Assembly: GCA_903837345.1 (NCBI GenBank)
Contig: CAILUG010000037.1
Span: forward strand, 1 to 64,000
Source of the DNA: an uncultured Gammaproteobacteria bacterium
GTDB taxonomy: Bacteria; Pseudomonadota; Gammaproteobacteria; Pseudomonadales; Pseudohongiellaceae
Direction of reading: 5' to 3'
Length of the DNA stretch: 64,000 bases
Below are positions 2,434 to 28,762 of the stretch, in pieces. A program made the position numbers and the translations under genes. How positions within the stretch are numbered: position 1 is the first letter of the stretch; every line of letters begins with the position of its first letter. Under the pieces are notes generated by a model. That model was not told the DNA's origin, did not search any database, and saw only the letters and a list, made by a program, of their open reading frames with translations.

Positions 2434-2545
2434 GGTGAAGTTCCCTCTGAGTGACCGGCGGAGGATAGCGGAAATCCGGGGCGCACGTCATTATCAAATA
2501 GCCAGCGGCGGGTGTTCGGCTATACTTCTGCCCCTGAGGTGGCAC

Positions 2546-4132
2546 ATGTCCCTTTATGGTAAGAGAACATTGATGTTGGTGCTGGGCCTGGCACTGTCAC
2601 TTGACTGTGCAGCCGCAGGCACTACTCCATTGAATGAGGCTGCTGCTGCCGGCAACCTCAAGCAACTGCGTTCCCTTTTAGGCAAAAGCATAACGGTCGA
2701 CAGCCCCGGGGTCGATGGCAGCACAGCCTTGCTGGTGGCAGTGGAAAACGAGCAGCTGGATGCAGTAAAACTGCTGCTGCAAAGCCATGCCAATCCCAAT
2801 GCTGCCAATCGTTACAAGGTGGTGCCGCTTTATCTCGCCGCTCTCAATGGCAACACTCCCATCCTGTCGGCGCTGCTGACGGCCGGTGCCGATCCGAATG
2901 GTTCGGCACCCTCGGGTGAAACCTTGCTGATGACAGCGGCCCGCACCGGCAAGGCCAAGGCCATGCAGGCCCTGCTGGATGCCGGCGCCAAAGTGGATGC
3001 ACGCGATGCCGAATTCGGCCAGAGCGCGCTGATGCTGGCTGCACGTGGCAACAATGCCGAGGCCATCAGTCTGTTGCTCGACCGTGGCGCCGACATCAAT
3101 GCCGCCACCCGCATCGGCGAACCCCCGGCGTTTGTGCCGCCTTGCAAGGGCACTGGTTGTGGTTCGGAGGGAGTGGGCATCAATCGCGGCGGCTTGCCCG
3201 ATCGTGGTCGCCGCGACATGACCAAGGGTGGTATGACGCCACTCTTGTATGCAGCCCGTGAAGGTTTGACCGCGGCCGCAGCCGTGCTGATCAAGCGCGG
3301 CGCCAATATTGAACAGGCTGAAGCCAACGGCATCAAGCCGCTGTTGATGGCGCTGCTGAGCAACCAGTTGGCCGTGGCTGATCTGCTGCTGGATGCGCAC
3401 GCCAATGTAAATGTCGATGATTTCTGGGGGCGCACGCCACTGTGGGCCGCTATAGAGCAGCGCGATCTCGACATGAGCAGCCGGCTGGAAGACGCTCCCA
3501 CCAGCAACCACATTGATCGCGATGCGGTGCTGCCGGTGATCAAGCGTTTGCTGGCAGCCGGCGCCAACGTGAATGCGCGCACCCGCGAAGTGCCGCCGCC
3601 CCGCAAATGGCTGTATGTGCTCAATGATGTGTCGTGGGTGGATTTCACCGGGCAGACCGCGTTTCTGCGCGCGGCATTTTCCGGCGATACCACGGTGATG
3701 AATCTGCTTTTGCAGTATGGCGCTGATCCCAATCTGCCCACCCAGGGCGGCACCACGCCGTTGATGGCAGCTTCGGGTGTAGGTTGGGTGGTGGCACAAA
3801 CCTACACCGAATCCACCGCAAGTTTGCTGGAAGCGATCCGTATCTGTCTCGCACACGGCGCTGATGTGAATGCCGTCAATTCCATGGGCTTGACCGCAGT
3901 GCTCGGTGCCGCCAACAAAGGCGGTGACGACATCATCCGCCTGCTGGCTGCCAATGGCGCCAAGCTGAATGCAGTGGATGTGCAAGGCCGCGATGCCTAT
4001 CGCTGGGCCGGCGGAGTATTCCTGGCAGCAGTCGGTGCCGAGCTGAAAGCCCATACCATATTGGTGCTGGACGAGCTAAATGGTCGTGCGCCTTCCAGGC
4101 CGCCCAGTGCCGAAACACCGGTGAAACCATAA
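2546..4132 (+). CDS. Exported ankyrin-repeat protein
   Basis: The 528-residue product begins with a signal peptide (MLVLGLALSLDCAAAG, about residues 10-25) and then consists of ankyrin repeats. Repeat signatures such as GETLLMTAARTGKAKAMQAL, GMTPLLYAAREG and TALLVAVEN with LL-AGA-PN ends recur about ten times. A cysteine-bearing insert (PPCKGTGCGSEG, about residues 198-209) interrupts the array. Ankyrin repeats mediate protein binding; here that would occur in the periplasm. The frame is open further upstream, but the ATG at 2546 is preceded by GAGGTGG and gives the signal peptide, so it is preferred. The stop at 4132 abuts the ATG of the DUF1592-type gene, implying co-transcription and a shared role with it. 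Confidence 0.85.
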   Translation: MSLYGKRTLMLVLGLALSLDCAAAGTTPLNEAAAAGNLKQLRSLLGKSITVDSPGVDGSTALLVAVENEQLDAVKLLLQSHANPNAANRYKVVPLYLAALNGNTPILSALLTAGADPNGSAPSGETLLMTAARTGKAKAMQALLDAGAKVDARDAEFGQSALMLAARGNNAEAISLLLDRGADINAATRIGEPPAFVPPCKGTGCGSEGVGINRGGLPDRGRRDMTKGGMTPLLYAAREGLTAAAAVLIKRGANIEQAEANGIKPLLMALLSNQLAVADLLLDAHANVNVDDFWGRTPLWAAIEQRDLDMSSRLEDAPTSNHIDRDAVLPVIKRLLAAGANVNARTREVPPPRKWLYVLNDVSWVDFTGQTAFLRAAFSGDTTVMNLLLQYGADPNLPTQGGTTPLMAASGVGWVVAQTYTESTASLLEAIRICLAHGADVNAVNSMGLTAVLGAANKGGDDIIRLLAANGAKLNAVDVQGRDAYRWAGGVFLAAVGAELKAHTILVLDELNGRAPSRPPSAETPVKP

Positions 4133-6592
4133 ATGACTGAATTTGCACAGCAGTACAAAAGCCGTCGGCCAGCAGAGTTTTCTGCGACCGTTTGCCGCCT
4201 GGACGGCGGCAACCGAGCCCCCATGGACGGGTTTACGGCGTGTCGCAGAAGACTCTGCTGGCCGACGGCTCTGCTCTGTATCTTTTCAGCTGTAATTTTG
4301 TTGTTGGCCCCATTAAGCAATGCCCAGCAACTCAGCAGCGCACAGTGGGACACCTTGCAGACATACTGCACCAAATGCCACAACCTCGATGATTTCTTCG
4401 GCGGCTTTGCGATCGACACGCTGACGCCGGCGGATGTACACAAGGACGCCGAGTTGTGGGAAAAAATCGTTCGCAAATTGCGCGGCGGCATGATGCCGCC
4501 ACCCGAGAATCCGCGGCCGCCGCAACGCGAGCTCACCGCGCTGGTGGGCAATCTTGAAACAGCGCTCGACAAAGCTGCTGCACAGCATCCCAATCCTGGT
4601 GCGGTGCTGCTGCACCGGATGAATCGCAACGAATATGCCAATGCCGTGCGTGATTTGCTGGCGCTGCCGGTGCGTGGTGCCGACCTGATGCCGTCGGATG
4701 ATTCCGCCGCGGGTTTTGACAACATCGCCAGCGCGTTGAGTTTGTCGCCGGCCTTGATGCAATCCTATGTCACTGCCGCTGCCAAGATCAGCCGACTGGC
4801 GATAGGGGATGTTGCTGCCAGTTCCACCGTTACCGGCTTCCAGCCACCGAGCGGCGTCTCGCAGTCAGTGAATGTGCAGGGTTTGCCGCTGGGAACCCGC
4901 GGCGGCATGGCGGTGAAATATGTGTTTCCGCTGGATGCCGACTATGAGTTCAACATTCGCCGTCAGGGTGTCAACAATTTCAATTTGCCGGCGGTGGGGC
5001 TGAAGGATCCGCTGGAAGTTTCCGTCGACGGTGAGCGGGTGGCTCTGTTGCCGGCCGACAAACCGCCGCGCGTGAAAGTGCATGTGAGTGCCGGCGCCAG
5101 AACCATCCGGATCGCGTTCTTGCACACGGCGCCCGAGCAGGAAGTGGATGACATGTATGCGATCCATGCCAACAGCGCCAGCATTGGCGGTTTTGATCTG
5201 ACCGGTCCGCTCAATGTCACCGGCCTTGGCAATACCGACAGCCGCAAAAAAATATTTGTGTGCATGCCGCATGAAACTGCCGAAGAACCGGTGTGTGCGC
5301 GGCAAATTCTCACCACGCTGGCGGCGCGCGCGTGGCGCGCACCGGTGGGTGAGGCGGCGGTGGATGACCTGATGGGTTTCTATCAGCAAGGCCAGAAAGT
5401 GCGAGGCTTTGAATCCGGCGTGCAATACGCGCTGGCGCGCATCCTGGTGGATCCGCGTTTTGTCTATCGGTTCGAAAAGGAACCCGAAAACATCGCGGCG
5501 GGCCAGAGTTATGCGCTGGATGATTTCGAGCTGGCTTCACGGTTGTCGTTCTTTTTGTGGAGCAGCATTCCCGATGATGCCTTGCTGCAAGCTGCCGGCA
5601 ACCACCAGCTGATTCAGCCGGCCCAACTGCAAGCGCAGACCAACCGCATGCTGGCCGATCCGCGTGCGGCGGCGCTGGTGGAAAACTTTGCCGCGCAATG
5701 GTTGTCATTGCGCACGCTCGACACCATCAACCCCACTTCCACTGACTATGACGGCACTTTGCGGGAGTCGATGAAGCGTGAGACGGAACTGCTGTTCACC
5801 AGCATCCTGCGTGAAGATCGCAGCGTGCTCGATCTGCTCGATGCCGACTACACGTTCGTGGATGAAAGACTGGCGCGGCACTATGGGATTCCCAATATCC
5901 AGGGCAGCCGTTTCCGCAAGGTGAAAATCACCGATGTGAATCGCCGCGGCCTGCTCGGGCAAGCCAGCATCCTGACGCTGACCTCAGCGCCCAACCGCAC
6001 GTCACCGGTCAAACGCGGGCAGTGGATACTCGACAATATTCTGGGCACGCCGCCACCACCACCACCGCCGGGTGTGGAAATCAAACTCGACCAGCCGGCC
6101 GCGCCGGGCGCTGCGCCCACCACCATGCGGCAGAGGATGGAACAGCATCGCGCCAATCCTTCCTGTGCTGCCTGCCATGGCATGATTGATCCGATTGGTT
6201 TTGCACTGGAAAATTTTGATGCGGTTGGCAAATGGCGTGACAGCACCGCCGGCCAGCCGGTCAATGCCGCATCAAAACTGTGGGATGGCACGCCGGTCAA
6301 CGGCGCTGCCAGCCTGCGCAACATTCTGATGGCAAAAAGTGAAAACTTCGTTGAAGTAGTGACCGAAAAATTGCTGGCCTACGGGCTGGGACGCAAAGTC
6401 GAGTATTATGATATGCCAACGGTGCGTGCCATCGTGCGGGCAGCCAAGCGCGACAATTACAAGTTGAGCAGTCTGGTAAAAGGCGTGGTTGCCAGCCAGG
6501 CTTTCCAGCAGCGCGTCAAGCTTGCAGCCACACCCAATACTGCAGTGGCTGTTGGTGGAGTTGCCAGCATTGAAGCGGCCAAGGAGAACTGA
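4133..6592 (+). CDS. DUF1592-type secreted multi-domain protein with two CxxCH motifs
   Basis: The 819-residue frame has an N-terminal cytochrome-like motif CTKCH (79-83), the DUF1587/1595/1592/1588/1585 order typical of this family, the GTPPPPPPPGVE proline run and a second CAACH motif (678-682), followed by DPIGFALENFD. Such proteins are predicted to be extracytoplasmic c-type haem proteins; their reaction is unknown. They almost always sit beside a DUF1552 gene, as here (4 bp away). The start is uncertain. ATG 4133 abuts the upstream stop, but the first 30 codons are encoded by a structured repeat (4160-4270). An ATG at 4223 would give a good signal peptide with n-region RRR, hydrophobic ALLCIFSAVILLLAPL and cleavage after SNA, but it lacks a ribosome-binding site. 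Confidence 0.85.
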   Translation: MTEFAQQYKSRRPAEFSATVCRLDGGNRAPMDGFTACRRRLCWPTALLCIFSAVILLLAPLSNAQQLSSAQWDTLQTYCTKCHNLDDFFGGFAIDTLTPADVHKDAELWEKIVRKLRGGMMPPPENPRPPQRELTALVGNLETALDKAAAQHPNPGAVLLHRMNRNEYANAVRDLLALPVRGADLMPSDDSAAGFDNIASALSLSPALMQSYVTAAAKISRLAIGDVAASSTVTGFQPPSGVSQSVNVQGLPLGTRGGMAVKYVFPLDADYEFNIRRQGVNNFNLPAVGLKDPLEVSVDGERVALLPADKPPRVKVHVSAGARTIRIAFLHTAPEQEVDDMYAIHANSASIGGFDLTGPLNVTGLGNTDSRKKIFVCMPHETAEEPVCARQILTTLAARAWRAPVGEAAVDDLMGFYQQGQKVRGFESGVQYALARILVDPRFVYRFEKEPENIAAGQSYALDDFELASRLSFFLWSSIPDDALLQAAGNHQLIQPAQLQAQTNRMLADPRAAALVENFAAQWLSLRTLDTINPTSTDYDGTLRESMKRETELLFTSILREDRSVLDLLDADYTFVDERLARHYGIPNIQGSRFRKVKITDVNRRGLLGQASILTLTSAPNRTSPVKRGQWILDNILGTPPPPPPPGVEIKLDQPAAPGAAPTTMRQRMEQHRANPSCAACHGMIDPIGFALENFDAVGKWRDSTAGQPVNAASKLWDGTPVNGAASLRNILMAKSENFVEVVTEKLLAYGLGRKVEYYDMPTVRAIVRAAKRDNYKLSSLVKGVVASQAFQQRVKLAATPNTAVAVGGVASIEAAKEN
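4160..4270. repeat. Structured repeat element copy 1: 29-bp inverted arms around a hairpin core
   Basis: Left arm 4160-4188 and right arm 4242-4270 are inverted copies over 29 bp with one mismatch. Next to the left arm is an inner perfect hairpin, TTGCCGCC/GGCGGCAA (4192-4199 and 4205-4212). The inner ends TCTGCGACCG and GGCGTGTCGCAGA are shared with copy 2 (14849-15026), whereas the outer 17-20 bp of the arms are not. The element lies inside the 5' part of the DUF1592-type gene and encodes in-frame residues. The middle segment (about 4213-4240) resembles repeat sequences I associate with other gammaproteobacterial genomes, but I cannot verify this. Confidence 0.75.
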
Positions 6593-6595
6593 TCG

Positions 6596-7930
6596 ATGTT
6601 CCTGAGCAAGAAACATTTGTCCCGGCGCACACTGTTGCGCGGACTCGGCACGACCATAGCGTTGCCCTTGCTGGATGCGATGATTCCGGCGGCGACGGCA
6701 CTGGCGCAGACAGCTGCAGTGTCGCGTCCACGTCTCACCTGCATCTACATTCCGCACGGCGCCACCATGGATTTGTGGACACCTGCCACCACCGGCAAGG
6801 ATTTCGCGTTTTCGCAGATACTCAAACCGCTCGAACCGTTCCGGCAAAGCCTGAATGTCATCAGCAAACTGGCGCACAAGCAGGTAGCGCCATGGGTGGG
6901 TGAAGACAGCGGTGGCGCCGAAAATCACGGGCGCGCAGTGGCGGCATTCCTGACCGGAGCGCATCCGGTAAAAGGTGATATCGCCAAAGTCGGTGTGTCG
7001 ATGGATCAACTGGCAGCGAAGACCATAGGCCAGGACACGCCCTTGCCATCGATGGAATTGACGATAGAGCCGGCCGGGCTGTCCTGTGACAGTAATCTGA
7101 CCTGTGCCTATCGCAACACCATGTCATGGAAATCCGAGTCGTCGCCGTTGCCGATGGAAAACAATCCACAGCTGGTGTTTGAACGCCTGTTTGGCGATGG
7201 CAGCACCGAAACCCAGCGCCGTGAGCGGCGCGCACAATCATCCAGCCTGCTCGATTCCATTGGCAGCCAGGTATCGCAACTGCAGCGTGGCATATCGGTG
7301 GCCGACCGCGCCCGCCTCGATGACTACTTGCAGGAAGTGCGTGAAATCGAACGGCGCGTGCAGCGGGTGGCAGCCAAGCTGAAACCTGACATGGTGTTGC
7401 CGGATGCGCCTTCCGGCATTCCGGCCAATTTCGAAACGCATCTGGAATTGATGTTTGATCTGCAGGTGCTGGCGTTCAAGACCGAGATCACCCGCATCTC
7501 CACCATGATGATGGCGCGCGAAGGTTCCAACACGCGTTATCCCGGCAGCAATGTGGCGGAAGGTTTCCACAACGCCTCCCATCACAGCAACGACCGCAAG
7601 AACATGGAGCAGTTTGCGCTGATCAATCATTACCACATCGTACAAATCGCCAAATTCCTCGGCAAATTGCAGGCCACGCCGGACGGTGACAGCAATCTGT
7701 TGCACAACTCGATGGTGCTGTACGGCAGCAGCCTCAGCGATGCCAACGAACACAACTTTGATCCGCTGCCGGTGATTGTGGCGGGCAATGCCGGTGGCCG
7801 GCTGCAAGGCAATCGCCATCTGGAATTTGCCCAGCACACGCCGATGGCGAATCTGATGCTGGCCATGCTGCACAAACTGGATGTGCCGGTCGACAGCATC
7901 GGCGATTCCACCGAGCCGCTGACAATCTGA
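6596..7930 (+). CDS. DUF1552 domain protein, Tat-exported
   Basis: The 444-residue product opens with a twin-arginine signal, SRRTLLRG (residues 9-16), a hydrophobic stretch and an AxA cleavage region (ATALA), so it is predicted to leave the cytoplasm folded. The rest is a DUF1552 domain, with marks such as CIYIPHGATMDLWTP near the start, HHSNDRKN and the C-terminal YGSSLSDANEHNFDPLPVIV. The fold resembles sulfatase or alkaline-phosphatase-like secreted proteins in length and in its late His-Asn rich block, but no activity is known. It starts three bases after the DUF1592-type stop. These two families occur together in many genomes, so they probably act as one system with the ankyrin protein. 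Confidence 0.88.
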   Translation: MFLSKKHLSRRTLLRGLGTTIALPLLDAMIPAATALAQTAAVSRPRLTCIYIPHGATMDLWTPATTGKDFAFSQILKPLEPFRQSLNVISKLAHKQVAPWVGEDSGGAENHGRAVAAFLTGAHPVKGDIAKVGVSMDQLAAKTIGQDTPLPSMELTIEPAGLSCDSNLTCAYRNTMSWKSESSPLPMENNPQLVFERLFGDGSTETQRRERRAQSSSLLDSIGSQVSQLQRGISVADRARLDDYLQEVREIERRVQRVAAKLKPDMVLPDAPSGIPANFETHLELMFDLQVLAFKTEITRISTMMMAREGSNTRYPGSNVAEGFHNASHHSNDRKNMEQFALINHYHIVQIAKFLGKLQATPDGDSNLLHNSMVLYGSSLSDANEHNFDPLPVIVAGNAGGRLQGNRHLEFAQHTPMANLMLAMLHKLDVPVDSIGDSTEPLTI

Positions 7931-15072: not shown

Positions 15073-17017
<1,945 letters not shown>

Positions 17018-17150
17018 ACCGCAAATACGTGGCTGTCCCTGTCAGCAGGCTGAGGGTGACAGTCATCGGCGTCTTGAACACAGGAAATACTCAGCTTCGC
17101 AGGAAGGTGATAGCCTTGTGCTTTCTGGACCGAAGCGATGGAAGCGCCAA

Positions 17151-18887
17151 ATGAGGCCTGCTCGAAAATCCGGTTTGAACTTTCTGGTGATGCTGACCTA
17201 CGTCAATGCCTCACTGGCCCAGAATGGCACCTTCACGCCAGTGGGCAGCGTGGTGAATTACGATGCCGGCTTCCGCTGTGCAGTGCCGTTCTGGAGGACG
17301 ACCGACCTCAATCTGGACAATCGTCGGGATATAGTGCTCGGCATGACTCCCACCACCACGTTCACCAGCGTATCGACACCTGGCGAGCTGACGATCTGGA
17401 CCGGGCAGCAGGATGGCACGCTACGCGAGAGCACAGCCAGTATGTTCTCAGGCAAGATCACGGCGGCCTATAACTTCACCCAGGTGAACGTGGCGGATTT
17501 CAATGGCGATGGCCGGCCGGATATTTTCGTGGCCGACAGCGGCGTCGATACCTATGCCAATGGCGTGCCGGTGGGACCGTGGCTGGGATCGACTCCCAAG
17601 CTGGCGCTCAGCAGCGGCAGTACGCTGGTGGATACCAGTGCCACGCTGAGCAATCTACCTTCCGTGTTCCTGCATACCAGTACGCTGGCCGACATCAATG
17701 GCGATGGTTTCGTCGATGTCTATGCCGGCTCGATTTCGGCGGGCACCAACAACACGCCTTATCTGTTGATCAACGATGGTCACGGCAATTTCACGCGCAA
17801 CCAGTCGCGGTTGCCGACTATCGTCACCGTATCGGGTTCCACCGGCACCGTTACCCAACCCGATGGCAGCAAGATTGGCGCGGGTGAAGCTTTCACCGGC
17901 TCACTGTTCATGGACTACAACAACGACAAGGCGCCGGACCTAGTGCTGATGCCGCAAAACGCGGCACCGAACGGCCTGTTGCTCACCAACGATGGCACTG
18001 GTGATTTCAGCAAGATTGCGCCGATCAATCTTCCTGCGGGGCTTTATGGTGGTGGTTACGTCAAGTACGTGACGAACTCCGATGGTTCCACCGCGATAAG
18101 CCAGGGCAAAGGTACCGTGGGGCTGGACACCCAGGCCGTCGATCTCAACAACGACGGCTACCTGGATCTGGTGGCGATCGAAACGGTGGTCGATCCTGCG
18201 AATAACGTCTATTACAAAGGCGGCAAGCTGCAGATCCTGATCAACCAGCAGGGCAAGGGTTTCGTTGACGAAACGGCCAGCCGTGGCGCACCGGGCTTCG
18301 ATGCCACCATCAACTACGACAGCTACCACGGCACGCTGACGGTGTTCGACATCAATGGTGACGGCGCACCCGATCTGATCGCCGTGCGCGTGGCGCCCAC
18401 ATTCTACGAGTACCATGTGTTCCTGAATGATGGCAGCGGACACTTCACGCGTGCCACTCTCGCCGGTTTGCCGCAGCAGGGCTTCATCGTGCCGCTCTCG
18501 ACCAAGCCGGACGAACCGGTCCGCGTTGCAGCCTTCAATACCGTCAACAAGAAGCTGGTGCAGACAGCGGGCGGCTCGGTGTCCAGTTGTACGTTGAGCG
18601 AGCAGGTCTATCAGTCGTCGGTCATCCCGATCCAGCATGTGAACAAGTCCAGGGACGAGTGTTTGTTCACATGGGGTGAACTGCATTATCCCGCCTACGT
18701 TGCGCCTGCCGGCAGCCAGACTACCTCAGCCGCCGCCTACAATTACCGCTACTACACGCAAAGCCATTCTTACCTTGGCACTTCGTCGGCAGACAATCAT
18801 CTCTACTACATGGGACCATTGACCAACAATGTATTGAAGGACCTCGGGCTTGCGTACGACTGGTATGTTTCCGCCGGATGCAGTTAA
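17151..18887 (+). CDS. Secreted FG-GAP/VCBS repeat protein
   Basis: The 578-residue product has a signal peptide (cleavage after ASLA, about residue 26) and at least five calcium-loop motifs of DxNxDGxxD type: DFNGDGRPD, DINGDGFVD, DYNNDKAPD, DLNNDGYLD and DINGDGAPD, which mark beta-propeller FG-GAP/VCBS repeats. These usually form seven-bladed extracellular propellers that bind ligands or cell surfaces. The C-terminal 100 residues (from about VNKKLVQTAGG) are not propeller-like and contain three cysteines. The frame is open upstream, but the ATG at 17151 is the only one that places a signal peptide at the N-terminus. The ribosome-binding site is weak. The glucoamylase gene starts 19 bp downstream. 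Confidence 0.82.
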   Translation: MRPARKSGLNFLVMLTYVNASLAQNGTFTPVGSVVNYDAGFRCAVPFWRTTDLNLDNRRDIVLGMTPTTTFTSVSTPGELTIWTGQQDGTLRESTASMFSGKITAAYNFTQVNVADFNGDGRPDIFVADSGVDTYANGVPVGPWLGSTPKLALSSGSTLVDTSATLSNLPSVFLHTSTLADINGDGFVDVYAGSISAGTNNTPYLLINDGHGNFTRNQSRLPTIVTVSGSTGTVTQPDGSKIGAGEAFTGSLFMDYNNDKAPDLVLMPQNAAPNGLLLTNDGTGDFSKIAPINLPAGLYGGGYVKYVTNSDGSTAISQGKGTVGLDTQAVDLNNDGYLDLVAIETVVDPANNVYYKGGKLQILINQQGKGFVDETASRGAPGFDATINYDSYHGTLTVFDINGDGAPDLIAVRVAPTFYEYHVFLNDGSGHFTRATLAGLPQQGFIVPLSTKPDEPVRVAAFNTVNKKLVQTAGGSVSSCTLSEQVYQSSVIPIQHVNKSRDECLFTWGELHYPAYVAPAGSQTTSAAAYNYRYYTQSHSYLGTSSADNHLYYMGPLTNNVLKDLGLAYDWYVSAGCS

Positions 18888-18906: not shown

Positions 18907-20310
18907 TTGGCCTGGCATGACTCTGGCACCAGCCATAAACCTTCTTTCTCGCGGGTAGAGCAATTGGAACTCGGTACCTGGATAACAAGACAAACCACTA
19001 TCAGCGCGCATCATCTTTCGCGTGCCATTTCCGCCAGCGGGCTTTGCCGCGAACGCGTTGAGTTCGGTCAGCGCGTGATACCTGCGCGCGGCTCGGTGCT
19101 GGCTTCACGCGTCATTGCCAACTGGGATCCCGAGCCGGACTACTTTTTCCATTGGGTGCGTGATGCAGCGGTGGCGATGCGCGCGGTAGCCGATCTGGTG
19201 AAGATGGTTGAGGATCCGGCTGAACAGCAAGCCTGGCACCAATGCTTTCACGACATGGTGGAATTCAGTCTGGCGATTTCACGCGAGCAACTGGTCAAGC
19301 AGCCACCGGCTGATTACCGCCAACGCACCCAGCGCAATTGCCGCCGCTTCCTGCGCACGCAGACCCGGCTCAACAGCCTGCATGGCGACAAATTGCTGGC
19401 TGAGCCGCGCTTCAATCCCGATGGCAGCATCGATTTCCTGAAATGGTCGCGACCGCAACTGGATGGTCCGGCGTTGCGGGCCTTGGCCTGTCTCGCGTAC
19501 CTGGCCGATGGTGGCACGCGGACGCCGCAGTTGTTGTCACTCTTGCAAGGCGATCTTGAATTCACGCTGCGGCAGGCTGGCCGCCGCAGCATAGGGCCGT
19601 GGGAGGAGCCGCACGAGTATTCCCATCACTACCATGTCGCGCTCGTACAGCTGGGTGCATTGGTGCATGGCCGTCAGTTCGCCGGTGCCAACGCAATGCA
19701 ATGGCAACGTGCCGAACGCAAGTTGCGCGCCGGACTTGAGCTACATTGGTCAGCGCAGCAGCAGGTGTTCACCGCGATCCGCACCACAAAGAGGAATAAC
19801 GAAAGCAACAAGATGGAGTTGGAGGCAGTCGGCGCAGAGCAACTGGTCGATGCTGCCATCCTGCTGGCGATCATGGAAGCTGATCTGCCGGAGCTGCCGC
19901 ACAGTGTGCTGGATCCACGCGCCGCTTCAACGCTGGCTGCACTGGAGCACGCGTTCTCTGCGGCCTTTCCCATCAACCACAACCGGCCGCAGGGACTCGC
20001 GCCTGCACTCGGTCGTTCACTGGCGGACAACTATTTTGGTGGCGGCGCGTGGTATGCCACTACGCTGGGCGCAGCGGCATTCTGTTATCGCCATGCCGTG
20101 GCCGAACCTGGTACTGCCGCGCACTGGCTTGCGCGCGGAGATGCGTGGATGGCGACCGTCAGATGGATGACGCCGGCCGACGGCTCTATGTCGGAACAAG
20201 TGGATCGCGCGACGAAGCAGCCACGCTCGGCGCAGCATTTGACCTGGAGTTATGCTGCGTTCGTGTCGGCAGCGCGGCTGCGCACTATTGCTATCGAAAG
20301 TGGAACTTGA
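18907..20310 (+). CDS. Glycoside hydrolase family 15 glucoamylase (fungal-like layout), no signal peptide
   Basis: GH15 enzymes release glucose from the non-reducing ends of alpha-glucans. The 467-residue product has PDYFFHWVRDAAVAMRAVAD (about 78-97), QLDGPALRALACLAYLADGG, GPWEEPHEYSHHYHVALVQL (about 224-243, with the presumed general acid Glu in WEE) and the late MSEQVDRATKQPRSAQHLTW (about 430-449, general base Glu). The N-terminal beta-sandwich domain of many bacterial GH15s is missing, so the order resembles fungal-type glucoamylases. No export signal is visible, implying a cytoplasmic enzyme. Translation likely begins at TTG 18907, with AGAAGGG (18896-18902) at ideal spacing. No ATG is available nearby. 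Confidence 0.82.
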   Translation: MAWHDSGTSHKPSFSRVEQLELGTWITRQTTISAHHLSRAISASGLCRERVEFGQRVIPARGSVLASRVIANWDPEPDYFFHWVRDAAVAMRAVADLVKMVEDPAEQQAWHQCFHDMVEFSLAISREQLVKQPPADYRQRTQRNCRRFLRTQTRLNSLHGDKLLAEPRFNPDGSIDFLKWSRPQLDGPALRALACLAYLADGGTRTPQLLSLLQGDLEFTLRQAGRRSIGPWEEPHEYSHHYHVALVQLGALVHGRQFAGANAMQWQRAERKLRAGLELHWSAQQQVFTAIRTTKRNNESNKMELEAVGAEQLVDAAILLAIMEADLPELPHSVLDPRAASTLAALEHAFSAAFPINHNRPQGLAPALGRSLADNYFGGGAWYATTLGAAAFCYRHAVAEPGTAAHWLARGDAWMATVRWMTPADGSMSEQVDRATKQPRSAQHLTWSYAAFVSAARLRTIAIESGT

Positions 20311-22529: not shown

Positions 22530-23165
22530 CTACGGACGCGCTGGCGCACCCGCACCACCGGCCGGCGGTGGACGCACGGCGTTGGTGTCATTGCGGAAGC
22601 GTCCGACATAAGCCGCCTTGGCGACCACCTTGCCCTTCATCGCTGCCAGCAAATCGGGACGATCGCCAGGCATGGCCGGCAGATCGAGCTGGGTATTCAG
22701 CGCGTAGAACTCGAACACGTAGTGGTGGTAGCGCGGACCATTCGGCGCGCCCATGCCGGTGTAACCACGGCCGCGGCCATTGACGGTGCCTTCCGGCAAT
22801 TTGCCTTCCTCGATCTGGATCATCGGCGGCGTCACCGCAATATTCCACGCCAGCCAGTGCAGGTTGTCATCGGGGTTGTTGTTACCCGCCACATCGAGGT
22901 CGTGCAGGATGACGGCGATGCTCTGGGCAGTGGGCGGGATGTTGCTGATCCTGAAGTCCGGCATGGTGTTGGTGCCGTACATCGAATACTTGAGCGGCAC
23001 GATGCCGCCGTCCTCGAACGCCTTGCTCTCGATCAGCAGCGGCACCAGCGGAGCACGTGCCGCGCCGCCTGCCGGCGGACCTCCTGCGGGTGGCTGCGCC
23101 AGTGCAGAGGTGGTCATTGCTGCAAACAGCAACAGTGCTGCGCCTTTGATGAATTTGCCGGGCAT
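22530..23165 (-). CDS. YbhB/YbcL-type PEBP family protein, exported
   Basis: The 211-residue product has a signal peptide (cleavage after SALA, about residue 23), Gly/Pro-rich stretches at both ends (PPAGG repeats) and a phosphatidylethanolamine-binding-protein core: IVPLKYSMYGTNTMPDFRIS, AVILHDLDVAG, LHWLAWNI and GPRYHHYVFEFYAL. Bacterial PEBPs of this group have no well-defined substrate. It is the last of four same-strand genes after the ABC transporter, GH3 and GH144 genes; a 45-bp gap separates it from GH144. It is convergent with the DUF6152 fusion gene. Confidence 0.88.
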   Translation of the reverse strand: MPGKFIKGAALLLFAAMTTSALAQPPAGGPPAGGAARAPLVPLLIESKAFEDGGIVPLKYSMYGTNTMPDFRISNIPPTAQSIAVILHDLDVAGNNNPDDNLHWLAWNIAVTPPMIQIEEGKLPEGTVNGRGRGYTGMGAPNGPRYHHYVFEFYALNTQLDLPAMPGDRPDLLAAMKGKVVAKAAYVGRFRNDTNAVRPPPAGGAGAPARP

Positions 23166-23210: not shown

Positions 23211-24506
23211 TCAACTGCTGAAGTGCGGACTGAAGAATCCCAGCTTCTTCAACGACTCCTGCACTTCCGGTGCCTGCATGAAGAGCGACCACAGCAAACC
23301 TGAGCGATGGTTCTCGATCATCACCAGGATGGGGCCCTGATCGATGGCGAGTTGTCCTTCCGCCACCCAGCCGGTGACGGGGCTGAAGGAATCGCGGAAA
23401 CCCAGCGGCGTCCACAGCTCGGCACCACGCCTGAGCAAAAAGTGCCGCAGTGCGCGCATCGACTCTGCCGGTGCATAGGGCATGGAGCTGATGGCAGCGG
23501 TAAGCGCAATAGTGCCGTGATCGTTGTCGGGTGAGAAGGCGTCGTAACCTTGTTCGCAATCGCAGGCGCTAAGGCCCCAGCAGTCAGCGCTATAACCTTC
23601 GAAGGCGTTGGGATTGTTTACGCAATGAGTCCAGTTGATCAGCGTGTGCGCGCGATTCTGCGCGAAATAATCGGCGTAGCGGTCCTTGAGTCCGCGCGGG
23701 TCGAGGCCGAGAAACGAATAGTGCGAGAAAAACAGCGGGCCGCCGAAGGGCGGGCCCAGCGGCAGTTCGATGTCGTAGTAGCGTTTGCCATTGGGGAACG
23801 CAGGGCTTGCGGTCCAGCCCTGGTGATAACACTCGACAGGTACGGCATGGGTGGGCGACGCACACGCCAGCACATAGACTACCAGTGCTTCGTTCCAGCC
23901 GGTAATGGCGTGGTTCATCTTCCACTCGTGACGTGGGCTCCAATGCCAGTACAGCGGGCCCTGCGCGCCACGCGCATGCCAATCCCATTCGACGCCGCGC
24001 CACAGCTGGTCAATCGCTGCACGCAAACCGGTTTCTTGCGCAGAAGCTTCAGTGAAATATTCACGCGCGCACAACAGTCCCATCATCAGGAAGGCTGTCT
24101 CCACCAGATCGCCGCCATCGTCGAGGTCGGAAAAGGGAATGGTCTTGCCGCTGGTGCCGTGCAGAAAATGCGGGAACACGCCGTGATAACGCTCGGCTTT
24201 GCCGAGAAACGTGACGATACGGGCAATGTGTGCATGTACTTCAGTGCGCGACAGGAAGCCGCGTTCACTCGCAGCCAGCAACGCCATCACGCCGAAGCCG
24301 GTGCCGCCGGTGGTGACGGTTTCCAGATAATCGTAGTGGGCCTTGTTGCTGCGCTCGCGCGCCATGCCACTGACCGGATGCGCGAATTCCTGGAAATAGG
24401 CCAGCGTGCCGCGCTGCACCTGGTCCAGCAACAAATCATCGGCATTGGAGTGCGCTTGTCCCGGGAGGTCTTGCTGATTGCCGGCATGTGATTCAGTGCT
24501 GTGCAT
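23211..24506 (-). CDS. GH144-type glucanase (putative endo-beta-1,2-glucanase), cytoplasmic
   Basis: The 431-residue product belongs to the Glycoamylase (PF10091) group, whose characterised members in GH144 cleave beta-1,2-glucan. Marks are the early TLAYFQEFAHPVSGMARERS, TGGTGFGVMALL, VFPHFLHG, DDGGDLVETAFLMMGLLCAR, the central ITGWNEALVVYVLACASP, GGPLFFSHYSFLGLDPRG, WGLSACD and the late AIDQGPILVMIENHRSGLLW. No signal peptide is visible, unlike typical secreted GH144 enzymes. The ATG at 24506 is preceded by AGGGA with seven bases between them; the ATG at 24512 is too close to it. The start overlaps the GH3 stop by 14 bp. The linkage specificity is inferred from family and neighbour only. 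Confidence 0.82.
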   Translation of the reverse strand: MHSTESHAGNQQDLPGQAHSNADDLLLDQVQRGTLAYFQEFAHPVSGMARERSNKAHYDYLETVTTGGTGFGVMALLAASERGFLSRTEVHAHIARIVTFLGKAERYHGVFPHFLHGTSGKTIPFSDLDDGGDLVETAFLMMGLLCAREYFTEASAQETGLRAAIDQLWRGVEWDWHARGAQGPLYWHWSPRHEWKMNHAITGWNEALVVYVLACASPTHAVPVECYHQGWTASPAFPNGKRYYDIELPLGPPFGGPLFFSHYSFLGLDPRGLKDRYADYFAQNRAHTLINWTHCVNNPNAFEGYSADCWGLSACDCEQGYDAFSPDNDHGTIALTAAISSMPYAPAESMRALRHFLLRRGAELWTPLGFRDSFSPVTGWVAEGQLAIDQGPILVMIENHRSGLLWSLFMQAPEVQESLKKLGFFSPHFSS

Positions 24507-26805
24507 GGACATTCCCTGTAGTCGGTGAATCCAGCCATTCGATGGCAACTTCCAGTTGGGTCAGTGAACTGCCGCCCACACGCAGCGTGAAGGTGCCAGG
24601 TTCGAAAACCTCGTCGGGCTGGCACAATGAAGTGCCAAGGAAGTAGCGGAAAGCGTCGATACCAAGTTCGAAAAGCACGCTTTGCCGGGCGCCGGCTGCC
24701 AGTTCAACCCGCCGGAAATCCTTCAACAGCTGCACCGGTCGCGAACGGTGCGCCACCGGATCACTGACATAGAGCTGGACGATTTCAATGCCCGCGTGTT
24801 GGCCGCAATTTTGCAAATCGACGGTGAGTTGCAGCGTGTCGTCACTTCCCTGCAACTGGTTCTTGCTGACACGCAGGTTGGAATATTCGAAACGGCTGTA
24901 ACCCAGCCCGTGGCCAAACGGATACAGTGGAGTATGCGCACCTTCGATGCGGCAGGCCGTGGTGAATTTGCGAAACACATGCTGACCTTGCGCATCGACC
25001 TCACTGTCGCCGGCAACATCGACGCCGAGTCGATCGCGCGGGCGGCCGGTCGGTGCTTCGGCATAGTAAACGGGGCATTGGCCGGAATCGCGCGGGAAAC
25101 TCATCGCCAAACGCGCCGAGGGATTGACCACACCATAAAGCACGTCGGCAATGGCCGGTCCGGCTTCACTGCCTGCAAACCAGGTATGCAGCAGGGCATT
25201 GGCATGACCAGCTTCCCATTCCAGTGCCAGTGGACGCCCGCTCATGGTGACGATCACCAGCGGCTTGCCGGTGGCATGCAAGGCTGCCAGCAAACGCTGC
25301 TGGTTGTCGGGCAGCGTCAATTGCGTACGTGTCGATGATTCGCCCGTGTGTTCTTTCGCTTCACCGACACAGGCCACTACTACATCGGCGCTGGCGGCCA
25401 GCGCCACTGCTTCGGCAATCAATGCGGCAGGAGCGCGCGGATCAATGAAGAAAGTCGGGCCGAACACATTCAGGCGAGCTGCGATGTCGGCATCATCGAC
25501 GATGTTGGCACCTGCGGCATGCGTCACATTGCGCTTGGCCGCCACGAATCCTTCCAGCACCGTGATGCTGTCGGCGCTGCGCGCTGCCACGGCCCAGGTG
25601 CCCTGCAAATTTTCACGATTGTTGGCCAGCGGACCGATCAATGCGACTTTGGTAGCGGGTGACAATGGCAGCACGCCGTCGTTTTTCAACAGTACACAGC
25701 AATGCGCCGCAGCTTTGCGCGCGAGTTGGCGATGGGCAGGTGCGCCGGATACGCGCGTGCGAAGCTGTGGGTCGAGTCCGCGATACGGATTGTCAAACAG
25801 GCCCAGTTTCATTTTCGCCTGCAGCACGCGCCGGCAGGCGTCATCAATCGCTTTCACACTGATGCGGCCGGCGTTGACCAGCGCCGGCAAATGCCGGAAA
25901 TACGCCTCGCTGACCAGATCGATATCGACGCCGGCAGTGAACGCCAGCAGCGCGGCCCCGGCAAGGTCGGCTGCCACGCCGTGATGAATCAATTCCAGGA
26001 TCGCGGTGTAGTCGGATACCAACAGTCCCTTGTACCCCCACTGCTGACGCAAGAGTCCATTCAATAGTTCGCTGTGCGCGGTGCAGGGAATGCCGGCCAG
26101 ATCATGAAAGCCTACCATGATGGCGGCGACACCGGCTTGTACTGCTGCCTTGAACGGCGGCAGTACCACGTTATGCAGACGGTAAGGAGTCATGTCCACG
26201 GCGTTGTAATCACGGCCACCCTCGGCAAATCCGTAAGCTGCAAAATGCTTGGCACAGCTGAGCAGGTGGTCTGTCTGCGCGGGATCGTTGCCCTGGAAGC
26301 CTTCCACCATGGCGCGTGCATAGATGCTGCCCAGCAGCGGATCTTCTCCGGGACTTTCGGCGCAGCGGCCCCAGCGTGCATCACGCGATACATCCAGCAT
26401 GGGTGCCCAGGTCAACGTAATGCCTTCTGCCGTCGCTTCGGTGGCGGCCACGCGTGCGGTGGTGCGAATCAGGTCTGCATCGAAGCTGCCGGCCAATGCC
26501 AGCGGTAACGGGAAAATGGTGCGATGGCCGTGGATGACGTCCATGGTAAACAACAGCGGAATCTTCGTGGCCGACTGCTCACAGGCGATTTCCTGCCAGC
26601 TGCGCAATTGTTCAAGCGCCGCGCCGCCAGCCAGGCCGCCCACTTGTCCGAGGGCGATGCGCTGTTCAATGTTGCCAACGCCGGTACCGGCACCCGTGGT
26701 GTCGCCACCGCCAGCCAACGGATGGTTGAACTGGCCGATCTTCTGCAGCAGCGTCATGCTGGCCAGAAGTTGCTCAATGAATACATCGGGCTGCTGCTGT
26801 GTCAT
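24493..26805 (-). CDS. Glycoside hydrolase family 3 beta-glucosidase (BglX-like), cytoplasmic
   Basis: The 770-residue product has the GH3 layout: N-terminal TIM barrel with LLFTMDVIHGHRTIFPLPLA and TWAPMLDVSRDARWGRCAES, the nucleophile Asp in GLLVSDYTAI, a second alpha/beta domain with VVVACVGEAKEHTGESSTR containing candidate acid/base Glu, and a C-terminal fibronectin-III-like domain. It probably releases glucose from beta-linked gluco-oligosaccharides; GH3 enzymes acting on sophorose are known, and the GH144 neighbour points the same way. No signal peptide is present. The ATG at 26805 is one base after the ABC gene stop and has GGAAAG upstream; an ATG at 26823 is an alternative. Confidence 0.9.
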   Translation of the reverse strand: MTQQQPDVFIEQLLASMTLLQKIGQFNHPLAGGGDTTGAGTGVGNIEQRIALGQVGGLAGGAALEQLRSWQEIACEQSATKIPLLFTMDVIHGHRTIFPLPLALAGSFDADLIRTTARVAATEATAEGITLTWAPMLDVSRDARWGRCAESPGEDPLLGSIYARAMVEGFQGNDPAQTDHLLSCAKHFAAYGFAEGGRDYNAVDMTPYRLHNVVLPPFKAAVQAGVAAIMVGFHDLAGIPCTAHSELLNGLLRQQWGYKGLLVSDYTAILELIHHGVAADLAGAALLAFTAGVDIDLVSEAYFRHLPALVNAGRISVKAIDDACRRVLQAKMKLGLFDNPYRGLDPQLRTRVSGAPAHRQLARKAAAHCCVLLKNDGVLPLSPATKVALIGPLANNRENLQGTWAVAARSADSITVLEGFVAAKRNVTHAAGANIVDDADIAARLNVFGPTFFIDPRAPAALIAEAVALAASADVVVACVGEAKEHTGESSTRTQLTLPDNQQRLLAALHATGKPLVIVTMSGRPLALEWEAGHANALLHTWFAGSEAGPAIADVLYGVVNPSARLAMSFPRDSGQCPVYYAEAPTGRPRDRLGVDVAGDSEVDAQGQHVFRKFTTACRIEGAHTPLYPFGHGLGYSRFEYSNLRVSKNQLQGSDDTLQLTVDLQNCGQHAGIEIVQLYVSDPVAHRSRPVQLLKDFRRVELAAGARQSVLFELGIDAFRYFLGTSLCQPDEVFEPGTFTLRVGGSSLTQLEVAIEWLDSPTTGNVHAQH

Positions 26806-26806
26806 G

Positions 26807-28762
26807 TCACTTTCCGTTGTCATGGTCAGTGCCGGCAGGCGCTTTGGGTCTCGGCACGAAGAAGGCAGTAAAGGCGCGGCCAAACCAGCTATTCAACTTG
26901 TTCTGCAGACTGGCTGACGGATAGTCTTGCTGTCGATCGCCCAGGTGTGCTCCGGCAGGCGATATCTTGAGTTGCAGTTGCCGGTTGTGAAATTGCAAAA
27001 GACTGGAGCGATGTCCGATGCTGACCAGCGTGGACTCTTTGAGCTCCTGCTCAAACAGGCTCATCACCCGCGCCTGGCTTTCGCGATCCAGTGCGCTGGT
27101 GGCTTCATCCAGAAACACCCATTTGGGCTTTTGCAACAACAGCCGTGCAAATGCCAACTGTTGCTGCTGGCCCTGCGAAAGCAGCCGGTCCCAGCGCTCG
27201 TCCATTCCCAGCGATTCCACCAGTTCGTGCAGGCCAACGCGGTCAAGCGCAATGCCGGCTTCCTCCAGTGTGAACTGTTGGGGTGGATCGGGATAACACA
27301 CCGCTGCTTGCAGCGTGCCAAGCGGAAGATAGGGGTTTTGTGGCATGAACATCATCTGCTCACGCGGTGGCAGCAGGATGGTGCCATGGCCCCAGTGCCA
27401 AAGCCCTGCGATGGCACGCAACAGCGTGCTCTTGCCGACTCCGGCGTCGCCGATAATCATGACCCGCTCGCCTGCGCTGATTTCCGTGCTGGCATCGTCA
27501 ATCACGACTTTGCCGAATGCACCAAGCACAGTCACATGTTCGAAGGAAAGATTGCCGGCAGGATGCAAGCCCAGCGTGATTTTTTCCAGACCGGCATGGA
27601 CTTGATCAATTTCGTTCAAGGCCCGGTCAAACACCGCAACCCGGTACAAGGTGGCGCGCCAATCTGAAATGGAGGCGGCATTGTCGACAAACCAGCGCAA
27701 ACCTCCCTGTACCTGGTTGAAGGCGCCGATCACCATCATCAAGCCGCCAATGGTGAGCTGGCCTTGCAGGTAGCCAGGCATCGCCACGATGGTAGGAACC
27801 ACGATGGCCAGCCAGCCATAGCCGGAAGTGATCCAGGTCAGTCTTGACAATGCAAAGATATATTCACGGGTGATTTGCAATACGTCGTCCAGTGCCCGGT
27901 CGAGATTGCGGCGCTCACCGGCTTCGCCACGGGAAAAAGCCACTGCTTCGGCACGCTCATTGACCCTTACCAGCCGGTAGCGCAGCTCGGCTTCGCGGGC
28001 ATAGCGGGTGGCGTCGAGTCCGATCAGGCGGCGGCCCACCAGCCAGGTCAAAAACGAACCCAGCAGTGCGTAAATCACTGCGCACCACACCATGTAACCG
28101 GGAATTGCGACATGCACACCGGCAATATCAAACGCAACATTGCGCGACAATTGCCACAACACGCCGATAAAGGTCACCAGCAACAAAACGTTTTGCACAA
28201 ATCCGATGCCGAGATTGGTGGCAAGCTCGCTGAGATGGCGGGCGTCCTCCTGCATGCGCTGATCGGGATTGGCGGCTACCTCGCTGGTGGCTTCCAGCCG
28301 GAACGGGCGGCCATTGGTCAGCCAGGCGTCGAACAAGTGGTGGGTGAGCCATTCGCGCCCGCGCAATTTGATGGTTTCCTGCAGCCAGGTTTGTGCAACC
28401 ACCAGCACCAGCAGGACCGCGACAATGCCAAGAAACACGAGGAGCTCTTGATGAATGCCGGGGATATTGCGTTGCTGGATGGCATCAAAGAATGCGCCAT
28501 TCCAGCGATTCAGCCCGACTTGCCCGAACATGATGCCAATGATCACCAGCAGGATTGTGCCAAACAAAACGGCAATGGCCTTGCCTTGGGGTGAGGACAA
28601 AAGTCCAGTGCTGACATCCAGCAAATCCTTCAGTACGGAGCTGGAGAAAGGTGCAGCCGCCAAGGCATGCGGTTCCAGTGGAGCAGCCGGGATCTGTGGC
28701 CTGGTATCTGCAATCAGGGGCTGGTTGATCTTGCTGGATGCAGGCCCGGTACCAAGCGCCAT
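26807..28762 (-). CDS. YddA/SbmA-like ABC transporter, fused permease and ATPase
   Basis: The 651-residue product has an N-terminal ABC_membrane_2-type permease with about six transmembrane segments (first near residue 62-84) and the family block RWNGAFFDAIQQRN. A C-terminal ATPase carries Walker A GDAGVGKST, an LSQGQQQQLAFARLLL signature and Walker B KWVFLDEATSALD. This family includes YddA, Rv1819c-like and SbmA/BacA-related proteins, several of which import diverse hydrophilic molecules. It is the first gene of an operon with GH3 and GH144 enzymes that lack signal peptides, so import of a glucan or oligosaccharide is an attractive inference. The ATG at 28762 has AAGGA nine to ten bases upstream. 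Confidence 0.87.
   Translation of the reverse strand: MALGTGPASSKINQPLIADTRPQIPAAPLEPHALAAAPFSSSVLKDLLDVSTGLLSSPQGKAIAVLFGTILLVIIGIMFGQVGLNRWNGAFFDAIQQRNIPGIHQELLVFLGIVAVLLVLVVAQTWLQETIKLRGREWLTHHLFDAWLTNGRPFRLEATSEVAANPDQRMQEDARHLSELATNLGIGFVQNVLLLVTFIGVLWQLSRNVAFDIAGVHVAIPGYMVWCAVIYALLGSFLTWLVGRRLIGLDATRYAREAELRYRLVRVNERAEAVAFSRGEAGERRNLDRALDDVLQITREYIFALSRLTWITSGYGWLAIVVPTIVAMPGYLQGQLTIGGLMMVIGAFNQVQGGLRWFVDNAASISDWRATLYRVAVFDRALNEIDQVHAGLEKITLGLHPAGNLSFEHVTVLGAFGKVVIDDASTEISAGERVMIIGDAGVGKSTLLRAIAGLWHWGHGTILLPPREQMMFMPQNPYLPLGTLQAAVCYPDPPQQFTLEEAGIALDRVGLHELVESLGMDERWDRLLSQGQQQQLAFARLLLQKPKWVFLDEATSALDRESQARVMSLFEQELKESTLVSIGHRSSLLQFHNRQLQLKISPAGAHLGDRQQDYPSASLQNKLNSWFGRAFTAFFVPRPKAPAGTDHDNGK

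Follow-up and report, generated by a model that had tools for sequence, protein, structure and literature searches.

A recurrent cassette of a YddA-type ABC transporter and GH144, GH3 and GH15 enzymes that may import and degrade periplasmic beta-1,2-glucan

Gene content of the locus

The window analysed here is a stretch of 64,000 nucleotides from an uncultured Gammaproteobacteria bacterium, in which a gene for a YddA-type ABC transporter is followed by genes for a GH3 beta-glucosidase and a predicted GH144 endo-beta-1,2-glucanase (Table 1). The original prediction had described these three genes as a tight operon and this description holds: all are on the minus strand, from 28762 to 23211, and are joined by one-base or overlapping junctions. 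The TGA stop of the transporter gene is separated by a single base from the ATG of the GH3 gene, which is preceded by a GGAAAG motif, and the GH144 start is located within the 3' end of the GH3 gene (overlap of 20 or 14 bases). A gene encoding a GH15 family enzyme is found 2.9 kb from GH144 on the opposite strand. The PEBP gene, 45 bases downstream of GH144, is possibly co-transcribed with the operon and its presence there is probably incidental.

Table 1. Position and main features of the genes discussed in this study
Gene product	Position	Strand	Features
YddA-type ABC transporter	26807..28762	-	651 aa; ABC_membrane_2 126 bits, SbmA_BacA 115, ABC_tran 69
GH3 beta-glucosidase, BglX-like	24493..26805	-	ATG at 26805, stop at 24493; three GH3 domains
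GH144-type endo-beta-1,2-glucanase, predicted	23211..24512	-	ATG at 24512 (or 24506); PF10091 244 bits
GH15 family enzyme, proposed alpha-glucosidase	18907..20310	+	PF00723 118 bits; TTG start per ORF tool, uncertain
PEBP (YbhB-like) protein	22530..23165	-	hydrophobic N-terminus; same strand as GH144

Recurrence of the cassette

Linkage was counted by profile search of all frames; rows that were copies of the window's genes or of those of L009 (L001, L082, L083 and L117) were dropped. In addition to the window, the transporter adjoins GH144 in 15 of the 80 fetched loci, from both Alpha- and Gammaproteobacteria and with variable gene order, so the pairing seen in the window recurs elsewhere beyond chance. 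In the other 65 loci, neither the transporter profile nor the GH15 profile gave a match above 60 bits, and 40 of them carry a TonB-receptor cluster instead. A true GH3 gene is present in 13 of the 15 cassette loci, 11 of which have it on the opposite strand, and was not found in the Kaistia locus (L016). Additional GH3-profile matches of 261-301 bits (in L004 and, as second matches, in L030 and L074) were rejected as artefacts, having no BLAST match to the window GH3; the GH3 profile had been built from a cluster containing some antisense frames. GH15 adjoins GH144 in 12 of the 15 loci and, of the 16 cassette genomes, only that of Kaistia lacks it. A glucokinase gene accompanies the cassette in L009 (Bosea) and L019 (Chelatococcus).

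Genomes combining this type of transporter with GH144 (hereafter cassette-type genomes) number 17. Sixteen of them are the window's own genome or were found through GH144, so the presence of GH144 in those is not a test of the association. The only cassette-type genome drawn blindly, G478, carries GH144 and two transporters on three different contigs, which weakens the transporter group as a strict marker of a linked operon.

Catalytic features of the three hydrolases

The window GH144 exceeds the PF10091 cut-off of 27 bits by far and matches CpSGL (5gzh) with an E value of 5e-137 over query residues 17-443, and 4gl3 with 4e-144. The counterparts of CpSGL D135, D139, E142, E211 and Y330 are identical in all 15 aligned cassette members; among them, E142 and E211, the catalytic acidic residues of CpSGL (PMC12102758), correspond to E138 and E208 in the window protein. 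The GH3 protein passes the BglX equivalog model (758 bits, cut-off 666) and its solved relatives include JMB19063 (3u48), the "Periplasmic beta-glucosidase" entries 5xxl-5xxo and Lin1840 (4zoa).

The GH15 protein lies well above the PF00723 cut-off of 22 bits, and among the 369 genomes of the class only the window's own genome gave a GH15 score above 200 bits. In the alignment, its two catalytic glutamates, E233 and E430, coincide with the WEE and SEQ motifs of the fungal enzymes; both glutamates and an Arg-Asp pair are invariant in the 12 aligned rows. The structure model fits GH15 glucoamylases (Z 36.8 to 3eqa), followed by isomaltose glucohydrolase (5z3a, Z 34.6) and glucodextranase (1ug9, Z 29.9); both alpha-1,4 and alpha-1,6 enzymes are among its fold matches. 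Since this family, which acts on alpha bonds, also holds trehalases and glucoamylases (PMC12446779), membership alone does not fix the bond cut by the cassette enzyme.

This alpha specificity, together with the existence of an exo-acting member of GH144 (PMC11842490), would fit a different reading, in which GH144 has drifted to another linkage and the substrate, judging from GH3 plus GH15, would be a glucan or glucoside with mixed alpha/beta bonds. We regard this as very unlikely in view of the conserved catalytic residues, the strong similarity to CpSGL and the occurrence of OpgG/OpgD in every cassette-type genome (see below).

Cellular location of the hydrolases

The absence of a signal peptide from GH3 and GH144, claimed in the original prediction, was confirmed by a hydropathy scan, a crude stand-in for SignalP, which considered every possible start within 120 residues ahead of the conserved core. 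In the window, neither protein has a 10-residue stretch with a mean hydropathy of at least 2.0, the maxima being 0.05 (GH144) and 1.27 (GH3). A missed export signal, on which an intracellular location could have foundered, was looked for in all three cassette hydrolases and not found: a hydrophobic N-terminus occurs in 0/15 GH144, 0/14 GH3 and 0/12 GH15 proteins of the cassette loci, versus 41/42 GH3 frames and at least 54/91 GH144 frames outside them, the last count being a lower bound because the scan undercounts signals in relatives with long N-terminal domains. Four frames offered no scorable stretch (the L014 GH3 frame, the L008 and L010 GH144 frames and one L066 GH3 frame), and frames whose domain scored less than 300 bits, including the truncated L074 GH144 and L004 GH15, were set aside. 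The window GH144 had also been presented as different from known GH144 enzymes in this respect. This is correct for the many relatives that are exported but too general, since loci of Phyllobacterium, Mesorhizobium and Neorhizobium contain single GH144 genes that lack a signal, and PgSGL1, of the sister family GH192, is listed without a signal peptide in Table 3 of PMC12102758.

A distinct group of YddA-type transporters

The window transporter combines an SbmA/BacA-like membrane domain with an ATPase domain on one chain (PF06472, PF05992 and PF00005). It is thus not an SbmA/BacA protein proper (SLiPT, proton-driven and devoid of an ATPase domain), and its Walker A, signature, Walker B and H-loop motifs are all intact. 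Its nearest solved structure is Rv1819c (6tqe), by sequence as well as by fold; in the fold search, made with a modest monomer model (mean pLDDT 73, pTM 0.56), Rv1819c and the ABCD group fill the first 28 of 50 matches, so that the absence of a sugar transporter there is not evidence. Most of the aligned cassette transporters have damaged ATPase motifs. Indeed, the H-loop histidine is kept in 4 and missing in 11 of 15, which makes ATP-driven import doubtful for the latter, and Walker A is damaged in one L011 copy and in the L074 and L016 proteins, the last of which, from Kaistia, has also lost residues of Walker B and of the H-loop (the motif table leaves aside the fragments of L004 and L007, and G478).

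The cassette transporters form a group of their own, apart from other YddA-type proteins, with a support of 100/100 in a first tree and an SH-aLRT of 100 against 55 other YddA-type proteins in a second one, computed without the long branches L108-L111. Both trees cover 16 of the 17 cassette-type genomes, the L007 protein being a fragment. The transporter profile gives 940 bits in the window's own genome and 569 for the next best among the 369 genomes of the class; in 220 alphaproteobacteria the scores are 960, 902 and 825 bits, then 640. Among these 369 and 220 genomes we found no member of the group without GH144, two of the three positive genomes (G000 and G374) being sample centres.

Proteins of the YddA family, which are full-length ABC transporters, are described as "of unknown function" in a 2026 paper (PMC13316013), while their relatives SbmA, BclA and Rv1819c carry cobalamin, bleomycin or peptides (PMC13316013, PMC3603451). 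The cassette protein could accordingly have another cargo, such as peptides, vitamins or antibiotics, and stand beside GH144 by chance or co-regulation, sugar oligomers entering the cell otherwise. The transporters away from GH144 in G478 and the degenerate ATPase motifs of several members are in line with this, but a linkage found in 15 of 80 loci, in two classes and with shifting gene order, and the separation of the group from 55 other YddA-type proteins would be hard to get by chance, and we consider such a cargo quite unlikely.

OPG synthesis and the source of the glucan

OpgG/OpgD proteins, which act on osmoregulated periplasmic glucans (OPGs), are encoded in 17/17 cassette-type genomes versus 24/226 background genomes (Fisher p 3e-15, or 5e-8 when only about 8 lineages are counted, both p-values being inflated by kinship, genome size and ecology). 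The window's own genome contains opgG followed by an adjacent gene for a PF13632 glycosyltransferase, which resembles opgH in position and size, and thus the genes for OPG synthesis. A cyclic-glucan synthase as the cytosolic source of the glucan was rejected for this genome: such synthases appear under PF10091 as frames of about 2700-3000 aa and the genome has a single PF10091 gene, which indicates that it encodes none.

The Xanthomonas OpgD that makes alpha-1,6-cyclized glucan has the residues W76, D343 and R477, W or Y being accepted at position 76 (PMC11228985). The sole OpgG/OpgD-type protein of the window's own genome has Y, L and A at these positions (the third aligned weakly), which suggests that this genome may not make alpha-1,6-cyclized glucan; such a glucan as its own product is not supported by these residues. 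The full set was found in 2 of the 22 OpgG/OpgD proteins from 11 cassette-type genomes, those of loci L051 and L005 (G372 and G382), and one G380 protein has Y76 and D343 but no R477; this count leaves out G370, G373, G375, G376, G377 and G383, and one protein each of G372 and G381.

The lack of cyclization residues in the window's own genome means that GH15 may serve foreign cyclized glucans, and the cassette would then import beta-1,2-glucans or alpha-1,6-cyclized forms from other bacteria as food. Such scavenging needs the same genes and biochemistry as recycling, and Bacteroidota relatives of GH144 do lie in loci with TonB-receptor and SusD genes. However, TonB-receptor/SusD clusters are missing from the cassette loci (Pfam on selected neighbours, so that some other route across the outer membrane may exist) and the use of foreign glucan does not need OpgG/OpgD, which is nevertheless present in all 17 genomes; a purely foreign source is therefore unlikely in our view.

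Proposed function

We propose, with somewhat better than even confidence, that the cassette imports periplasmic beta-1,2-glucan and degrades it to glucose in the cytoplasm, with GH15 taking alpha-linked glucose and the cell's own OPG as the likeliest source. The direction of transport, the substrate, the enzyme specificities and a role in recycling are what we infer from the gene content and its distribution. The YddA-type ABC protein would take up the glucan from the periplasm without a binding protein, and GH144 would cut the beta-1,2 chain in the cytoplasm, opening a ring as well; GH3 would trim glucose from the chain ends, and GH15 would remove the alpha-linked glucose left over from glucans with an alpha-1,6 bond, such as alpha-1,6-cyclized OPGs. 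Import is favoured over cytosolic supply because no cyclic-glucan synthase was found in the window's own genome, glucose is suggested as the end product by the glucokinase genes of L009 and L019, and the alpha-1,6 link is suggested by the OpgD proteins with W76, D343 and R477 in the L051 and L005 genomes. The glucan would most likely be the product of the cell's own OpgG/OpgH, and the cassette would then recycle OPG. The intracellular beta-1,2-glucan breakdown put forward in the original prediction is thus partly supported, by the recurring cassette, the distinct transporter clade, the hydrolases without export signals and the co-occurring glucan-synthesis genes, the GH15 partner and OPGs as the likely substrate source having been overlooked.

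A more specific version of this proposal is tentative and, on balance, somewhat doubtful. In this version, the cassette is dedicated to OPG recycling: the one-chain transporter would retrieve whole, possibly ring-shaped own glucans without a binding protein, cytoplasmic GH144, GH3 and GH15, the last cutting a single alpha-1,6 bond, would dismantle them, and the ATPase would be decaying in some lineages, as expected en route to an SbmA-like proton-driven carrier.

Comparison with known systems

ABC transporter and beta-glucosidase genes are also combined in the beta-1,2-oligoglucan clusters Lin1839-1841 of Listeria innocua (where the glucosidase is GH3) and SGR_2423-2427 of Streptomyces griseus (PMC12369401). 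Their importer is of the conventional type and includes a Sop-binding subunit; the Listeria cluster also has a phosphorylase, and that of S. griseus has GH1 and GH193 (PMC12369401). The cassette, by contrast, has a one-chain YddA-type protein, GH144 and GH15. In the cycloisomaltooligosaccharide system (TdCIBP), a cyclic glucan is likewise proposed to be imported whole and cut intracellularly, but the ring is alpha-1,6-linked and the importer depends on a binding protein (PMC13084667). The TonB-receptor/SusD loci of Bacteroidota share with the cassette the presence of GH3 and GH144 homologues in one locus; their hydrolases are mostly exported, they contain outer-membrane receptor genes, and no YddA-type ABC or GH15 gene was found in the stretches examined.

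Rv1819c, YddA, BclA and SbmA belong to the same sequence family and fold as the cassette transporter, and our literature search found no glycan link for them. The ABC transporter Cgt of Brucella shares the type IV ABC fold, and the glucan that it exports is the product of a cyclic-glucan synthase. The earlier claim that no glucan transporter of this kind is known is therefore correct within the YddA/SbmA branch, to the extent of that search, and not for ABC transporters in general, Cgt being an exporter of cyclic beta-1,2-glucan (PMC11842490); the cassette instead has hydrolases, in a genome without a cyclic-glucan synthase. In the open-access PMC literature, at the level of listings and abstracts, we found no report of a cell taking up its own periplasmic glucans and degrading them in the cytoplasm, and, at the level of listings, nothing on the cassette itself or on OPG uptake.

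Significance

If the proposed function is correct, it would give a job to one group of YddA-family ABC transporters, with a testable cargo deduced from recurring enzyme neighbours, and this cargo would be the first glycan in the SbmA/YddA branch, as far as the literature search reached. Action of GH15 on the alpha-1,6 closure would add a new role to this family and provide a tool for the analysis of cyclized glucans. Finally, the series from intact to decayed ATPases within one group provides natural material on the origin of SbmA from an ABC transporter.

Gene organisation in the window

The original prediction placed genes for an SbmA/YddA-type ABC protein, a GH3 and a GH144 protein in one tightly packed operon, and all three were found at those places, with a single base between ABC and GH3 and with the GH144 start lying inside the GH3 end. 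In sequence searches the closest solved relatives were Rv1819c for the transporter, and a set including JMB19063, the 5xxl group and Lin1840 for GH3; those of GH144 were 4gl3 and CpSGL, the family's founding member. The GH144 residues at CpSGL D135, D139, E142, E211 and Y330 are identical in 15/15 aligned cassette members.

Genes of the cassette and transporters with decaying ATPase motifs
Feature	Position	Strand	Remark
ABC transporter gene	window 28762-26807	minus	domains unambiguous
GH3 gene	window 26805-24493	minus	domains unambiguous
GH144 gene	window 24512-23211	minus	domains unambiguous
GH15 gene	window 18907-20310	plus	2.9 kb from GH144 stop
Cassette transporters, decaying motifs	L011:4973-8947		two tandem copies
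Cassette transporter, decaying motifs	L016:7080-8993		
Cassette transporter, decaying motifs	L074:4689-6527		

Within window 12873-35337, the stretch holding GH15 and the cassette has dnaK, dnaJ and dapB to one side and carA and carB to the other; judged by the usual order of these housekeeping genes, the set looks inserted between them. An FG-GAP repeat protein gene (16827-18887; start uncertain and, as called, overlapping dapB) ends 19 bases before GH15 on the same strand and is possibly co-transcribed with it. Elsewhere in the window (2174-7930), genes for an ankyrin-repeat protein, a cytochrome-type protein (DUF1592/1588/1585) and an HXXSHH protein (DUF1552) follow one another at spacings of 0 and 3 bases and form a module.

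Recurrence of the cassette

GTDB contigs were scanned with the GH144 protein, giving 86 relatives. The 80 best-matching loci were retrieved together with flanks of up to 9 kb, and partner genes were sought by profile searches over every open frame. The original prediction had proposed to look for the operon in other genomes, and the transporter-GH144 pairing does recur: a YddA-type ABC gene adjoins GH144 in 15 of the 80 loci, the window not counted (L002, L003, L004, L005, L007, L009, L011, L012, L014, L016, L019, L028, L030, L051 and L074). By record title these belong to Bosea, Chelatococcus, Kaistia, Taklimakanibacter, Odyssella-like, Rhodospirillales and several gammaproteobacterial genomes including a Nevskia. 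A true GH3 is present in 13 of them (opposite strand in 11) and absent from L004, a 3.4 kb contig, and L016. Gene order varies (ABC-GH144-GH15 or GH144-GH15-ABC), so that a single recently shared stretch alone does not explain the linkage. The remaining 65 loci gave no transporter- or GH15-profile match above 60 bits; TonB-receptor clusters occur in 40 and SusD clusters in 39, each cluster having been identified through a Pfam match of one representative.

The GH15 protein immediately adjoins GH144 in 12/15 cassette loci and was found in 15/16 whole cassette genomes, Kaistia being the only exception; in the L074 genome it lies next to a GH144 piece on a different contig. Among 369 genomes of the window's class, the GH15 profile exceeded 200 bits in the window's own genome only (605), three others reaching 152-192. 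The two catalytic-motif glutamates and an Arg-Asp pair are invariant across 12 rows. A structure model (mean pLDDT 84) matched fungal glucoamylases best (Z 36.8), and also isomaltose glucohydrolase 5z3a (Z 34.6) and glucodextranase 1ug9 (Z 29.9), two enzymes described as acting on isomaltose and isomaltooligosaccharides, that is, on alpha-1,6 bonds (PMC12446779).

The transporter group

At E 1e-60 the transporter profile matched a protein in 34/369 class genomes (own genome 940 bits, next 569), and at E 1e-100 in 41/220 alphaproteobacteria, where the cassette genome G374 scored 960 bits, G478 902 and 825, and the next best 640. In a tree of 47 rows, a branch with support 100/100 sets the cassette transporters, together with both G478 proteins, apart from the rest; a second tree gave the same split (SH-aLRT 100; 73 rows, 18 vs 55, four long-branch rows left out). 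G478, the only blind-drawn genome of this transporter type, has a strong GH144 that does not adjoin its transporters. Nine further class genomes carry a GH144-like gene above 230 bits without a transporter of the cassette group; in one, G091, the YddA-type proteins lie outside it.

The transporters of the window, L002, L003 and L030 have intact ATPase motifs. The H-loop histidine is missing in 11/15 aligned cassette transporters, and Walker A features are lost in L016, L074 and one of the two L011 copies, which might pair as a heterodimer. SbmA has been proposed to derive from a YddA-like ABC protein by loss of the ATPase domain (PMC13316013), a path that the decay in cassette transporters recalls.

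Location of the hydrolases

As the original prediction had it for GH3 and GH144, the hydrolases show no signal peptide: a hydropathy scan over possible start codons (not SignalP) found a hydrophobic N-terminal stretch in 0/15 GH144, 0/14 GH3 and 0/12 GH15 of the cassettes. In non-cassette loci it was found in 41/42 GH3 and at least 54/91 GH144 frames. Cyclic-glucan synthases of class relatives are PF10091-matching frames of ~2700-3000 aa; the window's own genome has a single PF10091 gene, hence no cyclic-glucan synthase and no obvious supply of substrate within the cytoplasm. The simplest inference is that glucan is imported into the cell. One known beta-1,2-glucanase, GH192 PgSGL1, is listed without a signal (PMC12102758, Table 3).

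Separately, ten loci of Phyllobacterium, Mesorhizobium and Neorhizobium (L022, L024, L027, L031-L035, L039, L040) hold a lone signal-less GH144 gene, with no cassette partner detected by profile searches within the fetched stretch; it is perhaps a cytoplasmic check on the cell's own cyclic glucan. In three class relatives (G105:C21, G234:C27, G248:C1) two PF10091 matches are ~4-7 kb apart, one being a stand-alone gene and the other a very long frame (1771-2895 aa) of the cyclic-glucan-synthase type.

Association with OPG genes and the proposed substrate

GH15 hydrolases target terminal alpha-glucosidic bonds (PMC12446779), so a GH15 beside a beta-1,2-glucanase calls for a beta-1,2-glucan with an alpha bond. 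Osmoregulated periplasmic glucans (OPGs) of Ralstonia, Xanthomonas and Cereibacter include such alpha-1,6-cyclized beta-1,2-glucans, of 13, 16 and 18 glucose units (PMC11842490). OpgG/OpgD (PF04349, GH186) was present in 17/17 genomes that combine GH144 with a transporter of this type, against a background of 13/114 gammaproteobacteria and 14/115 alphaproteobacteria (24/226 without the sample centres G000 and G374 and without G478). Uncorrected for shared ancestry and ecology, Fisher p is 3e-15, or 5e-8 for a rough count of ~8 independent lineages, and 1e-4 when the background is limited to genomes of 3 Mb or more among those first listed (18, of which 3 are positive as counted in the rows listed). 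In the window's own genome the opgG product is closest to E. coli OpgG, and the gene that follows encodes a PF13632 glycosyltransferase of 703 aa whose position and size are OpgH-like.

Ring closure by Xanthomonas OpgD requires W76, D343 and R477 (PMC11228985). Read in 22 OpgG/OpgD proteins from 11 cassette-type genomes, these positions are all conserved in two, from the L005 and L051 genomes; the latter is the sole OpgG/OpgD found in its genome (714 bits vs Xanthomonas OpgD). An alpha-1,6 substrate is well founded for these two cassette bearers, because their OpgD has all three cyclization residues. The window's own OpgG/OpgD-type protein has Y, L and A there, the last aligning weakly, so that its product may not be closed by an alpha-1,6 bond. 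Five proteins of Bosea, Chelatococcus and G478 (L127, L164, L165, L170, L173) have a gap of one residue where D343 would align; their genomes carry three or four OpgG/OpgD paralogs, which suggests further OPG products.

Proposed mechanism and relation to known systems

The Rv1819c cavity is very large. This relative of the YddA-type protein is required for cobalamin uptake (PMC3603451). We infer that the YddA-type protein would admit glucan from the periplasm, GH144 would cleave within the chain or ring and GH3 would trim the beta-1,2 ends; once GH3 arrives at Glc-alpha-1,6-Glc, GH15 would take off that glucose, and glucokinase would trap the glucose. Two cassette loci, L009 (Bosea) and L019 (Chelatococcus), contain a glucokinase gene.

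Uptake of glucan oligomers with intracellular breakdown is as such of an already known kind, described for the Listeria and Streptomyces beta-1,2 clusters (PMC12369401) and for the cyclic isomaltooligosaccharide system (PMC13084667); the importers described in both use a binding protein. As far as literature searches reach, the novelty lies in the partnership with a YddA-type protein, in the presence of GH15 and in the link with OPG genes; a bolder reading is that the cassette would serve OPG recycling.
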